From Ricordea florida (lineage: Eukaryota; Cnidaria; Anthozoa; Corallimorpharia; Ricordeidae): a DNA stretch of 64,000 nucleotides. A program made the position numbers and the translations under genes. The stretch lies in the NCBI GenBank assembly GCA_949710005.1, contig OX453274.1:14389497-14453496 (forward strand). Direction: 5' to 3'. Positions 52,254 through 55,710 of the stretch are shown piece after piece. The notes beneath the pieces were generated by a model. It worked only from the letters and a program-made list of their open reading frames with translations. It had not been told where the DNA came from and ran no database searches. Within the stretch, counting starts at the first letter, position 1. Each line of letters starts with the position of its first letter.

Positions 52254-52397
52254 TCACCAAGTACCAATGAAAGGGGGAAATCGCCTGTACTTGTTAACAA
52301 GTTTTCTTAATCTGTTTTGTTTGCCTCCGTACTGTCTTATTCGTTTGAACACTCTTTTGTATCTTTTGACGCGTCTCCCTTTAGGCATGACGGTCAA
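52254..52397 (-). CDS. Basic protein 2 of the Maverick, behind a splice acceptor
   Basis: ATG at 52388, 44 residues (MPKGRRVKRYKRVFKRIRQY...FPPFIGTW), about one third Arg/Lys. The frame is also open back to 52397, the base after TTTCATTTCCAG|, again phase 0 (TTGACCGTCATG). It resembles small core proteins of DNA viruses in composition. The stop at 52254-52256 nearly touches the next ORF. Upstream lies a CA/GT microsatellite (52447-52466). Confidence 0.6.
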   Translation of the reverse strand: MTVMPKGRRVKRYKRVFKRIRQYGGKQNRLRKLVNKYRRFPPFIGTW

Positions 52398-52526
52398 CTG
52401 GAAATGAAAGGGAAACGGGTGGTGTCGAGCTTTTTTATGGGTACAGACCACACACACACACACACATGAAGAGGATGCAACGTTTTTTTTAATGGAAACA
52501 GTCACCATGATGACTTTTACAACATG

Positions 52527-52829
52527 TTACCATGATTCATAGATAGATGGTATTTTACTGAATCTATAGAACAATGATCTGAAATAACGCCTCGATAAGG
52601 GACCATGGATCGGTTCAAAACGTTGATAAGCACTACAGAAATGACAAAGACAAGACACATGATGGGGATTCACATACGTTAAATAATCTTGACAGTGAAT
52701 GCATTGATGCGTGCAAACGTCTGGCATTTCACATAGGGTACATTGAAAAGGACATGGACAAAGTTCTCGTAAAAAAGGTCTCATGTACCCTTGATGATCG
52801 TCCTCGTCACTATCGTCATCACTATTGTC
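52527..52829 (-). CDS. Cassette: acidic start plus Cys-rich domain (100 aa)
   Basis: Open in phase 0 directly after TTTTTTTGTAG|. It begins DNSDDDSDEDDHQGYMRPF, without an ATG at the junction (first ATG at 52784). It continues with a Cys/His-rich part (CPCPFQCTLCEMPDVCTHQC, CLCHFCSAYQRF) that could bind zinc as a RING- or B-box-like finger. It is the longest cassette of the array. The acidic start is paralogous to the two cassettes upstream of it. Confidence 0.6.
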   Translation of the reverse strand, partial: DNSDDDSDEDDHQGYMRPFLRELCPCPFQCTLCEMPDVCTHQCIHCQDYLTYVNPHHVSCLCHFCSAYQRFEPIHGPLSRRYFRSLFYRFSKIPSIYESW

Positions 52830-52857
52830 CTACAAAAAAAATAATCATTGGATTCAT

Positions 52858-52953
52858 CTACATCGTTTTACATTCGTTGGCATTTTGGATGGAATCTCTC
52901 ATAAACTCTTCAGTATGACTATATTCTTGATCGCTATCGTCATGCCTATCGTC
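52858..52953 (-). CDS. Cassette: short acidic ORF (31 aa)
   Basis: Phase 0 after TTTTTTTTGTAG|. Begins DDRHDDSDQEYSHTEEFMRD and ends TAG. The start resembles those of 52829 and 53208, suggesting duplication of exon and acceptor together. Confidence 0.45.
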   Translation of the reverse strand, partial: DDRHDDSDQEYSHTEEFMRDSIQNANECKTM

Positions 52954-53025
52954 CTACAAAAAAAATTTTAAACAAAATTACTGCAGGGATAGAGTACCTA
53001 TGTGCCAGAAGAGAGCATCACACCC

Positions 53026-53208
53026 CTAACAATCGCAATAATCTATCCTGTCCATCATGTGGTAACAATAGTGACAATCACAACCACAATACGTGTACTG
53101 ATCTACATCTTTGTTACAGTCATCACAATGACAAGCTGCCAAGTCAAAAAGTAGTTCGGAACTATCATTATCCTCAGATACACTACTCTCATCATCGGTA
53201 TCTTCATC
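53026..53208 (-). CDS. Cassette: acidic start plus Cys/His-rich tail (60 aa)
   Basis: Phase 0 after TCTTTTTTCAG|. DEDTDDESSVSEDNDSSELL is followed by a tail with many Cys and His (CHCDDCNKDV, YCGCDCHYCYHMMDR), ending TAG. Possible metal binding. No ATG at the junction. Confidence 0.5.
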   Translation of the reverse strand, partial: DEDTDDESSVSEDNDSSELLFDLAACHCDDCNKDVDQYTYCGCDCHYCYHMMDRIDYCDC

Positions 53209-53240
53209 CTGAAAAAAGAGGATGATTTGTTTTTTAATCA

Positions 53241-53380
53241 TCATCTGAGACATCGTCTTAACGCATGAAAAATCATCAAATCAGCGTAAAAAACACATTC
53301 AATATCGACACCATCCGTTTCAGGGATATTGGAATCTATCCGAAAAAAAAACTTGTACAATCATCAATGGATTGAGTTAT
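53241..53380 (-). pseudogene. Cassette: ITQSIDDCT family, member 3, frameshifted
   Basis: After GTTTTCCAG| it begins ITQSIDDCTS and runs into nine T residues, where the frame ends at a TAG (53336-53338). In the other frame a homologous continuation is readable to about 53241 (DSNIPETDGVDIECV...). A homopolymer length error or mutation would explain it. Confidence 0.55.
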
Positions 53381-53394
53381 CTGGAAAACAAAGT

Positions 53395-53550
53395 TCAATC
53401 GCCCATGAATAAACGTCGAACCCTTCGTCTACATTCCATCAAGTTATCATAAGTGCGTAACATGTGATAGATTTGAATCATATCAATGTGGGCAACGGGT
53501 CCATCTACTAACGAAACAAAACGTGTACAATCATCAATGGATTGAATCAT
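53395..53550 (-). CDS. Cassette: ITQSIDDCT family, member 2 (51 aa)
   Basis: After TTTTTTTTCACAG| it begins with ATG: MIQSIDDCTRFVSLVDGPVA, then IYHMLRTYDNLMEC and a basic end (RRRVRRLFMGD). Mostly helical by composition. Its neighbours start with ATA at the same codon, so the ATG here is not needed if a leader supplies the start. Confidence 0.55.
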   Translation of the reverse strand: MIQSIDDCTRFVSLVDGPVAHIDMIQIYHMLRTYDNLMECRRRVRRLFMGD

Positions 53551-53565
53551 CTGTGAAAAAAAAGA

Positions 53566-53712
53566 CTATAAATCACGCATACTTCGAAACGTTCTGGAGG
53601 CATGTAATAAATCATCGTAAATATCTAACATATCCAATAGAACGGATTCTTCTACTACTTCGTTGAACTTTTCTCTACACAAGCTTGTACATTCATCAAT
53701 CAATTGGGTTAT
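53566..53712 (-). CDS. Cassette: ITQSIDDCT family, member 1 (48 aa)
   Basis: After TTTTTTTTTCACAG| it begins ITQLIDECTSLCREKFNEVV and continues LLDMLDIYDDLLHASRTFRS, ending TAG. There is no ATG in its first 27 codons, yet similarity to members 2 and 3 begins at the very first codon after AG. That is strong evidence that translation enters through a splice junction. Confidence 0.55.
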   Translation of the reverse strand: MTQLIDECTSLCREKFNEVVEESVLLDMLDIYDDLLHASRTFRSMRDL

Positions 53713-53732
53713 CTGTGAAAAAAAAAGAAAGG

Positions 53733-54537: not shown

Positions 54538-54628
54538 CTAAAAAAAAAAGAAAAGAAAAGAAAAAAAATCATACGACTCATCTCGACAAGATGGTGTGCC
54601 TAAAAGACATTTATGCATGCCATACGGA

Positions 54629-54706
54629 TCACTTTAAACAAAGTCGTTTTTTTTGGTGTATTATGCATGTGTTCAATGGTATTTGAATATCCACGATTTG
54701 ATCCAT
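54629..54706 (-). CDS. Small ORF paralogous to the 54901 cassette (25 aa)
   Basis: MDQIVDIQIPLNTCIIHQKK, TGA at 54629. It resembles the 54901 cassette (both 'M-(E/D)-x2-V-x-IQ-x-P-x-NT-x-I'). The usual T-tract/AG is altered to TTTTTTTTAAAATG, so the acceptor seems lost. Probably a decaying duplicate. Confidence 0.4.
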   Translation of the reverse strand: MDQIVDIQIPLNTCIIHQKKRLCLK

Positions 54707-54727
54707 TTTAAAAAAAAGAAACATCTC

Positions 54728-54762
54728 GAGGAGGAGGGGGGTGGGGGTACCCCCCACCCAAA
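54728..54762. promoter_or_regulatory. G-run/C-run palindrome, copy 1
   Basis: GGGGGGTGGGGGTACCCCCC centred on a KpnI-like GGTACC. A similar palindrome occurs at 58328-58348 in the divergent promoter region. Function is unknown. It can fold as a very stable hairpin and could act in termination or regulation. Confidence 0.4.
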
Positions 54763-54790
54763 AAAAAATAAAATAAATAAAATAAAAAAT

Positions 54791-54901
54791 TTAATGACAA
54801 TAATCCACATACAAACGTAAACGAATTTTTTCTTTTTGGTTGAAATAGACTATTTGAGTGTTGAATGGAACTTGAATGTATGATACCATATGCTCCATGG
54901 T
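54791..54901 (-). CDS. Cassette: 36-aa ORF
   Basis: Phase 0 after TTCTTTTCTTTTCAG|. ACC ATG places a Met at codon 2: MEHMVSYIQVPFNTQIVYFN, then KEKIRLRLYVDYCH and TAA. Paralogous to 54706-54629. The sequence upstream contains long inverted repeats (AAAGAAAAGAAAAGTTATT and complement, 54905-54998). Confidence 0.5.
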   Translation of the reverse strand, partial: TMEHMVSYIQVPFNTQIVYFNQKEKIRLRLYVDYCH

Positions 54902-55032
54902 CTGAAAAGAAAAGAAAAGTTATTTTTTTGAGTGGCCTCCAAACCTACCCTTACAGCCACCCCTAACCTCCAAAGGGAATAACTTTTCTTTTCTTTTATT
55001 GACTTATAACATGTTTATATAATTAAAAAAAA

Positions 55033-55089
55033 ACTAATCTTCTTGTCTTCTTCTTAATGCATCATGCGCATTATATTGATGAAAACCAT
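55033..55089 (-). CDS. Very short ORF after an AG acceptor, doubtful
   Basis: After TGTGTTCAG| two readings are possible: an 11-residue phase-0 ORF (MVFINIMRMMH) or an 18-residue reading in another phase (GFHQYNAHDALRRRQED). The acceptor lacks a T-rich tract. A plus-sense TTTATTGAC at about 54996 gives AATAAA on the minus strand just downstream, a possible polyadenylation signal. Confidence 0.3.
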
Positions 55090-55098
55090 CTGAACACA

Positions 55099-55302
55099 TT
55101 AACAACAAAACGTGTTCAACACTCTGAATAATTCTTTCACAGAGGTATAATCAAGTGTTCGGGTCGCTTCGTTACATTTCAAGGTAGTTTCCAAAAGATG
55201 TTTTAATACATAAAAATTAAAGAAAAAACGATGAGGGCAAGCAATGTGGTTGGGTGATTTGTATCTGAGTGTAGATTTGGTGGCTTTTAATTTAATCAAC
55301 GC
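55099..55302 (-). CDS. Cassette: 67-aa ORF
   Basis: Phase 0 after CTTTTTTTTCATAG|. ALIKLKATKSTLRYKSPNHI, then FFFNFYVLKHLLETTLKCNE and a C-terminus VKELFRVLNTFCC. No ATG in the cassette. Function not recognised. Confidence 0.5.
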   Translation of the reverse strand, partial: ALIKLKATKSTLRYKSPNHIACPHRFFFNFYVLKHLLETTLKCNEATRTLDYTSVKELFRVLNTFCC

Positions 55303-55342
55303 CTATGAAAAAAAAGAAAAAAAAACATGTATTTTTTTACAA

Positions 55343-55507
55343 TCAAACAATGAAAGAATCAGATAAAAGAGTTCTTTCAAACCATGTTAATTTGGGGGGT
55401 TCAAAATAAACGGGTCCTATACACAAGGCTCTACATAGTAGCAACATAATACGAAGTTCAATATCTGAAATCCTCATGCTTCGTGCTTGTTTATATTTCG
55501 CATAAGT
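55343..55507 (-). CDS. Cassette: 54-aa ORF, first after the leader
   Basis: Phase 0 after TTTTTTTCTTTTAG|, only a few bases beyond the stop of the leader ORF. TYAKYKQARSMRISDIELRI, then MLLLCRALCIGPVYFEPPKL, TGA. The first ATG is codon 11. It would join in frame to the leader donor at 55645. Confidence 0.5.
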   Translation of the reverse strand, partial: TYAKYKQARSMRISDIELRIMLLLCRALCIGPVYFEPPKLTWFERTLLSDSFIV

Positions 55508-55521
55508 CTAAAAGAAAAAAA

Positions 55522-55710
55522 TTAAGACAAACGAGTTTGAACATGTCTTGTGGTCAAATAAAAATAATAAAGTGCTATGGTCAAGAAACACAAAGAAAGT
55601 ATGACTAATAACATTATTATGACGGTATTCAAGTCTATTCTTACCAGACGAATCCTTCGTTGAAATTCTGGGTCCTGTAAGAGGGCATCCGTAGCTTCTT
55701 CAGAGGCCAT
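55522..55710 (-). CDS. Leader ORF with internal phase-0 splice donor; unspliced form is a membrane protein
   Basis: The ATG at 55710 opens MASEEATDALLQDPEFQRRI and then CGT CTG|GTAAGA, a consensus donor between codons 22 and 23 (55645/55644). If unspliced it reads on into a strong transmembrane helix (VIIMLLVILSLCFLTIALYY) and stops at 55522, a 62-aa single-pass protein. If spliced, the 22-residue start would fuse in frame to any downstream cassette, since all of those are phase 0. Before the copy C insertion the start overlapped the end of the RING gene. The splice model is inference from sites and phases. Confidence 0.6.
   Translation of the reverse strand: MASEEATDALLQDPEFQRRIRLVRIDLNTVIIMLLVILSLCFLTIALYYFYLTTRHVQTRLS

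Follow-up and report, generated by a model that had tools for sequence, protein, structure and literature searches.

A 64,000-nucleotide stretch of the Ricordea florida genome (assembly GCA_949710005.1, contig OX453274.1, positions 14,389,497 to 14,453,496; hereafter the window) contains a damaged copy of a Maverick (Polinton) element. On the minus strand of this element, at 52254..55710, fourteen short open reading frames (ORFs) follow one another, each directly behind a candidate splice acceptor. Comparison with other copies in the same genome makes it very likely that the array is the 3' half of a single alternatively spliced gene, in which a constant 5' exon with a RING finger would be joined to one of many exchangeable C-terminal tails. 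The features of the element in the window are listed below; families of tails recognized among the copies carry letters, and other tails are named by their first position.

57669..58159, minus strand: 5' part of the constant exon, an acidic/Q-rich region and a RING-finger domain predicted from homologous exons (the ORF is listed as 57527-58246)
55716..57668, no strand assigned: repeat-element insertion splitting the constant exon; it has matches elsewhere in the window, and both its ends match an insertion in copy L017
55645..55715, minus strand: 3' end of the constant exon, including the 22 codons before the donor (ratio of nonsynonymous to synonymous variation, pN/pS, 0.08-0.09)
55636..55647, minus strand: predicted shared donor CTG/GTAAGA, phase 0, the best donor of the region and kept among copies
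55522..55644, minus strand: putative membrane-spanning tail of 40 codons, read if the donor is unused; hydrophobic in 27 of 32 copies
55343..55507, minus strand: tail A, acceptor TTTTAG/ACT, with an in-frame TAG at the acceptor in 15 of 15 family copies
55099..55302, minus strand: tail B, acceptor CATAG/GCG, an ORF without ATG (family pN/pS 0.27)
54905..54997, minus strand: predicted hairpin with a G-rich loop; the pyrimidine tract of acceptor C forms its 3' arm, and an AATAAA (55000) lies at its 5' foot
54791..54901, minus strand: tail C (TMEHMVS..), a phase-0 ORF behind an acceptor, conserved among copies
54629..54706, minus strand: remnant akin to tails C and D, without an acceptor AG in the window
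54364..54537, minus strand: tail 54537 (VCSRMIHGG..), a phase-0 ORF behind an acceptor
54109..54342, minus strand: tail 54342, a phase-0 ORF behind an acceptor
53957..54094, minus strand: tail 54094, of the E type, with a 37-bp tandem duplication
53733..53846, minus strand: tail 53846, a phase-0 ORF behind an acceptor
53566..53712, minus strand: tail 53712, placed in the F family by paralogy
53395..53550, minus strand: tail 53550, placed in the F family by paralogy
53336..53380, minus strand: tail 53380, F family, frame broken
53026..53208, minus strand: tail I, with an acidic start and CxCxxC-type motifs
52858..52953, minus strand: tail 52953, acidic
52527..52829, minus strand: tail 52829, with an acidic start, cysteine-rich
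52254..52397, minus strand: basic, core-protein-like ORF with an ATG at codon 4, either a member of the array or the first late gene
51907..52227, minus strand: basic ORF near the truncated end, perhaps a core or minor capsid-type protein, without a Pfam match
59741..62563, plus strand: Maverick type B DNA polymerase (PolB), frame interrupted (PF03175, E 2.5e-46)
62939..63802, plus strand: Maverick integrase (PF00665, E 1.3e-12)

The array is assigned to a Maverick family because PolB, of the protein-primed kind, and a retrovirus-like integrase lie divergently beside the constant exon. The same arrangement was seen elsewhere in the genome, with PolB divergently upstream of the constant exon in five of the seven copies read on that side and an integrase in three of the seven upstream pieces. 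The genome holds at least 50 PolB matches (49 of 1583 candidates scored), many with stop-free frames of more than 1000 codons; the closest named relatives among the 120 matches listed were from octocorals (47%). In the window, the relatives match PolB only to residue ~900, and N-terminal pieces lie in other frames. Since the PolB frame is broken, the constant exon is split, one tail lacks an acceptor, and tail 53380 is broken, the window copy is a fossil; its element seems to be cut at ~51.9 kb.

The initial annotation had described fourteen minus-strand ORFs in phase 0 behind AG acceptors, and this description holds for all of them: YAG stands directly 5' of every start, mostly with a clear T/C tract, and the phase-0 ORFs are 14-100 codons long. 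When acceptors on the minus strand of 52260-55700 were scored without regard to ORFs, using matrices that represent a generic metazoan consensus and were not trained on this host, the nine top-ranking AGs were all among the fourteen starts. The array accounts for 2.7% of the window's strand length and holds nine of the 63 sites of that acceptor strength. Nine of nine such sites in the array open a phase-0 ORF that is 36 codons or longer; on both strands of the rest of the window, this is true of eight of 54 AGs of equal strength (Fisher p 1e-6). Not every acceptor of the array is strong, however, as indicated by the low scores (0.8-1.7) of 53380, 52829, and 52953. Codon usage, trained on the PolB, integrase, and RING ORFs of the element, gave a summed score for the fourteen tails of -23 in phase 0 versus -144 and -136 in the other frames; tails 55507, 53846, 53380, and 52397 scored better in a frame other than phase 0. 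Tail 53380, which opens for 14 codons only, duplicates 53550/53712 but loses the frame after ~10 codons. The last ORF, 52397, may be an ordinary late gene, because it has its own ATG at codon 4 and a basic, core-protein-like sequence.

Two details of the initial annotation needed adjustment. ORFs without any ATG do exist, but there are four of them (55302, 54094, 53846, and 53380) rather than two or three. The stops were said to lie often within ~15 bp of the next acceptor; this is the case for about three to six of the 13 gaps, the full set being 14, 14, 15, 20, 21, 28, 40, 72, 110, 127, 129, 197, and 253 nt.

A DNA search of the source genome (538 Mb, 48 contigs) with window positions 54300-55700 returned at least 112 matches, many of which are pieces of one copy; as 40 of 81 candidates were scored, this number is a lower bound. 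We analyzed 37 further copies, L015-L034 (20 copies), L042-L050 (nine), and L051-L058 (eight, located beside PolB matches), as well as a piece, L059, beside L057. In most of the 37, the layout of the array recurs; the copies form four lineages of one Maverick family, down to 69% in PolB. In L052 only the end of the constant exon and tail A are present, L058 has nothing of the array, and L023 and L026 have little after the donor. An ORF-blind scan of the array strand in 35 copies found a phase-0 ORF of at least 30 codons behind 213 of 247 strong acceptors, compared with 23 for phase 1 and 30 for phase 2. The preference was seen in every set: 111 of 131 acceptors in L015-L034 (phase 1, 11; phase 2, 18; the inserted repeat of L017 was kept), 52 of 61 in L042-L050 (four and six), and 50 of 55 in L051 and L053-L057 (eight and six; L052 and L058 were left out). 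No relative in which the cassettes are plain ATG genes lacking acceptors was present among the copies read from this genome. No usable relative came from IMG/VR, which was scanned with PolB, a PolB alignment, the integrase, and the RING exon, nor was the array seen in five contigs, L001-L005, which carry bacterial or archaeal labels, are probably mostly eukaryotic contamination, and extend for at most 1.2 kb on the array side. Four PolB matches of the 69% lineage lie within ~30 kb (C8:21370168-21399972), three of them spaced by ~5.3 kb.

The copies also changed the view of what precedes the array. The initial annotation had a leader of 22 codons with its own ATG. In L051-L056, the frame is open for 122-182 codons 5' of these 22 codons, to the edge of the piece, and runs through a RING-like domain, so that the predicted RING-finger exon has at least 144-204 codons. 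The end of the RING abuts the 22 codons in frame in 30 of 33 donor-bearing copies, the window counted (the exceptions are L025, L050, and the window). The supposed leader ATG is an internal Met codon, replaced by Ile in six copies (L045, L046, and L051-L054). We therefore rejected the idea that these 22 codons form a separate leader gene. A repeat element of 1953 bp stands in the window between the RING ORF (58159-57669) and the stump (55715-55645). Parts of it match window positions 12166-12816 and 22414-24032, and the 30 copies with an uninterrupted junction between the RING and the 22 codons lack the insertion at this place. We thus read the head ORF of the window, which had no homologue in the protein database, as the stump of a RING exon cut by the insertion and not as a whole gene. 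Further copies of the repeat element that splits the RING exon were noticed in L016 and L017.

The exon is under strong protein-level constraint. The RING segment has a pN/pS of 0.22 (1.50 and 1.58 in the other frames), and each of its eight Cys columns is conserved in 22-24 of the 24 copies compared. For the last 22 codons before the donor, pN/pS was 0.08 in a set of 18 rows, from which L025 and L026 were left out, and 0.09 in 23 copies, while the other frames gave 2.2-5.6. As judged from the sequences of the copies, an acidic or polar region lies N-terminal of the RING. In a comparison of the L056 exon with PDB sequences, the best matches were RNF8 (E 1.4e-5), RNF125 (5e-5), and TRIM56 (5e-4). 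All three are E3 ligases, and it is reasonably probable that the RING acts as an E3 ubiquitin ligase. It could instead be a structural or transcription-type zinc protein, with the tails conferring different nuclear functions, as in cellular BTB genes that have many 3' ends. The non-canonical ligands (eight Cys and no conserved His at the usual place) and the acidic region before the RING fit such a role, the E3 ligases among the best matches do not, and we consider it doubtful.

The exon finishes at the phase-0 donor CTG/GTAAGA (55645/55644), to which the initial annotation had already pointed. It is the best GT of the minus strand in 51900-58600 and outscores 99.5% of all 3490 GTs on that strand of the window. 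Among 32 copies, which had been picked by their GTAAG, the donor ranked first of 93-154 GTs in 24 and first or second in 28. In 20 of 20 aligned rows that were not picked in this way, GTAAGAAT is present at the donor, and the GT is found in 23 of 23 copies recovered by the protein motif of the exon. The most distant lineage has GTACG.

The existence of this donor bears on a different kind of splicing, in which a host spliced leader RNA, possibly ending in AUG, would be joined in trans to each acceptor and would convert a polycistronic array into separate mRNAs. The compact same-strand ORFs, each behind an acceptor, do resemble a trans-spliced operon, and a leader ending in AUG (as in flatworms) would likewise demand phase 0. 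Trans-splicing, however, needs neither a cis donor nor a strongly conserved coding exon ending at it, and here both are found, in the right phase and in four lineages. We regard trans-splicing as very improbable.

In 27 of 32 copies, translation past an unused donor would reach a strongly hydrophobic stretch (KD19 at least 1.6), the read-through being 20-55 residues long. Just after the donor, pN/pS is 0.57-0.67, and comparison with the codons before it indicates that protein constraint falls sharply at the donor. The stretch exists in two or more sequence types and is also present in the L055/L056 and L059 lineages (L059 was judged by eye). Retention of the intron would yield a membrane-anchored RING protein; the free-standing transmembrane protein that the head ORF might have encoded is accordingly reinterpreted as the retained-intron tail of this protein.

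Conservation of the tails was measured in two sets of families, from which copies with ORFs far from the median length had been dropped. Ten families of the second set, pooled, had a pN/pS of 0.47 in phase 0, against 0.96 and 1.06 in the other frames; the pooled value of the first set, which included families G, H, and J (the second pool did not), was 0.42. Individual values in the second set were 0.54 (A), 0.27 (B), 0.37 (C), 0.35 (D), 0.68 (E), 0.67 (F), 0.55 (54537-type), 0.44 (53846-type), 0.33 (I), and 0.55 (K). The cassettes, for which the initial annotation had suggested a test of purifying selection, thus show frame-specific protein conservation, if unevenly by family. We considered that nested splicing might be real while its products serve mainly RNA control, or while one or two tails are functional and the rest are decaying duplicates. 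The constraint on tail families does vary (0.20-1.12), and with F, G2, H, and 53712/53550 being paralogous, some redundancy is likely. Against this, phase-0 pN/pS is below 1 in nine of ten families of the first set and in ten of ten of the second, and the order and number of tails are similar across lineages; such an outcome appears unlikely.

The beginnings of the tails argue for splicing directly. The acceptor AG lies inside an in-frame TAG in 61 of 61 copies of families A, B, D, and H (47 of 47 for A, B, and H), which indicates that the ORF opens exactly at the predicted splice site. The first Met codon comes at position 9-28 in A, 36-64 or not at all in B, 35-48 or not at all in H, and 37-51 or not at all in I. 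Tails B and I are among the best conserved, and with a late or absent Met they do not easily fit translation from an AUG of their own. These observations weigh on another proposal, that each ORF is an ordinary small gene translated from its own ATG and the T-tract/AG motifs are spacers or relics. An ATG at codon 1 or 2 is indeed found in 18 of 18 copies of C, 14 of 14 of D, 17 of 19 of E, 18 of 18 of F, and 12 of 14 of G. Yet tails A, B, H, and I are open from the first base behind the AG and have no ATG at that point, the in-frame stops at the acceptors are difficult to accommodate, and codon 1 of the F family is ATG in 53550 and ATA in its paralogues 53712 and 53380. We regard ordinary small genes as very improbable.

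In little-broken copies, we counted ORFs of at least 25 codons behind a pyrimidine-rich YAG, merging overlapping ORFs by eye; this gave 11 or 12 tails in L029, about 15 in L053, and about 16 in L056. Paralogy links the window's tails 53712 and 53550 with F, G2, and H, the duplicated unit being an acceptor plus its ORF. Recombination has probably shuffled segments among element copies, because the sequence types of the constant end, the intron, tail B, and tail C are freely combined among L015-L033 (the four-gamete test fails for six pairs of segments when clusters are cut at 12% distance). Tail I is acidic and contains CxCxxC-type motifs. A reading of tail B as an LxCxE ('oncoid') protein was dropped, as the motif in the window is absent from the other tail-B copies viewed by eye. 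Single-sequence structure models of two tails, one a long helix (predicted local distance difference test, pLDDT, 79; predicted template modeling score, pTM, 0.37) and one of low confidence (pLDDT 48), were not used.

Among the copies, 98 of 189 gaps between a stop and the next acceptor are 30 nt or shorter (median 27), which makes nested acceptors on 3'-coterminal RNAs likelier than separate terminal exons with their own poly(A) sites. Elements that could control the choice are present. The arms of the hairpin 5' of acceptor C, which would mask this acceptor, are kept in 19 of 22 copies. At its 5' foot, ahead of the G-rich loop and no more than 150 nt upstream of the acceptor, AATAAA occurs in 15 of 22 copies, and another AATAAA is found at the stop of tail I in nine of 23 cases. 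One idea is a choice between an early poly(A) site, which would leave only tails A and B, and continuation into the distal tails.

Comparing copies thus establishes the anatomy of the array, its phase, its frame-specific protein conservation, and the conservation of donor and acceptors. The proposed gene would work as follows. A constant 5' exon, consisting of an acidic or polar N-terminal region, the RING finger, and a 22-residue end, would finish at one phase-0 donor, behind which lie about 10-16 alternative acceptors, each with a short phase-0 ORF directly after it and a stop of its own. Splicing to one acceptor would equip the RING protein with the C-terminal tail encoded there, one of many, and any ORFs farther along that RNA would become 3' untranslated region; in most copies, an unused donor would lead instead to a membrane-spanning tail on the RING protein. 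The tails may then select the targets of the RING, host or viral, so that one viral gene would provide a set of ligases. We are most confident of the core claim, that one RING exon is spliced to many tails, which is highly likely. That the tails are target modules is an evenly balanced proposition, and there is an even chance that the whole is a combinatorial viral ligase, whose interchangeable substrate-binding tails duplicate, diverge, and recombine to give ~10-16 targeted degraders per copy in addition to the unspliced membrane form. Of the earlier proposal that one leader is spliced to many terminal exons in a Maverick, the common N-terminus, the conserved phase-0 donor, and the many phase-0 tails stand; the leader of 22 codons does not, and the terminal exons need not be separate.

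Several observations weigh against the alternatively spliced RING gene. Splicing, E3 activity, and targeting by the tails are inferred from genomic sequence. Because the copies share common ancestry, acceptor counts are not independent trials; several copies are decayed, and the opposite strand, scanned in 26 copies, itself leans mildly to phase 0 (22 of 57 sites, with eight each in phases 1 and 2). Donors are weak in L045/L046, L051-L054, and L055/L056 (scores 2.4-2.9, ranks 1-5), as well as in L033 (2.88, rank 3) and L027 (0.98, rank 8), and the retained-intron membrane tail is missing in L051-L054, where only 17 residues follow. Constraint on the tails is uneven (E, 0.87 and 0.68; F, 0.60 and 0.67; G, 0.70; H, 1.12), and an excess of variable sites at third positions is significant alone in only two of ten families (B and I; pooled p 3e-4). 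No His stands at the usual ligand place of the RING, and Pfam RING models match three homologous exons below the cut-off (19-22 bits versus 27; E 1.6e-3 to 1.4e-4), with no RING match for the window's own RING ORF. For the tails tested, Pfam, PHROGs, and PDB sequences yielded no significant match, and tail I had no homologue in the protein database, so that the choice of targets by the tails is a guess.

The arrangement of one donor and many in-frame acceptors is, at the sequence level, that of lola and mod(mdg4) of Drosophila, in which a constant N-terminal part is likewise spliced to many alternative 3' ends. Those are cellular BTB transcription factors encoded by much longer genes, whereas the Maverick array has a RING exon, a spacing of 15-30 nt between many tails, and a length of about 2-3.5 kb, and belongs to a virus-like mobile element. 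Alternative acceptors that receive a common N-terminus or leader also occur in early regions of DNA viruses, namely those of polyomaviruses and adenovirus E1/E4, but these units make fewer products and have neither a tandem array of acceptors plus ORFs nor a RING. The likeness to adenovirus transcription units drawn in the initial annotation is loose, since adenovirus late leaders are non-coding. The retained-intron form recalls RING-CH ligases of the K3/K5 type of Kaposi's sarcoma-associated herpesvirus (KSHV), viral RING proteins with a membrane segment, although these have another class of RING and the membrane form here is only one of many tails.

According to excerpts of PMC8097293, Maverick/Polinton elements likewise have PolB, an integrase, accessory regions, and two gene modules on opposite strands, and intact vertebrate Mavericks are reported to be intron-free, a statement for which the paper also cites Kapitonov and Jurka 2006. 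Adintoviruses, also animal viruses with PolB plus integrase, are covered in a preprint that names an 'Oncoid' class of small accessory proteins (PMC11071296, excerpts). No comparable array is described in the portions of PMC11071296, PMC12220804, PMC6431247, and PMC11071308 that were consulted, and a literature search limited to open-licence papers, seen in part, found no alternatively spliced array in a Maverick, in agreement with the initial annotation, which knew of none for Polintons.

If the proposed gene is real, compact acceptor-plus-tail units allow a small DNA element to encode 10-16 proteins that share one domain; adding such a unit would be a cheap route to new specificities, and the tails would form a natural library of small protein-targeting modules. 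With four lineages in one genome and many PolB frames open, the proposal is directly testable with RNA data.

Traces of other mobile elements were also noticed in the window. ORFs for a Harbinger-type transposase (DDE_Tnp_4) and a YqaJ/SWIM protein (46392-47384 and 48321-49415) adjoin the truncated end of the Maverick. Gypsy-type retroelement ORFs lie at 5896-9888 and 14748-16970 (by eye; 8110-9885 by Pfam). A fragment carrying an endonuclease VII domain, perhaps from another PolB-type element, is found at 13167-13715, and a run of N occupies 27204-27714.

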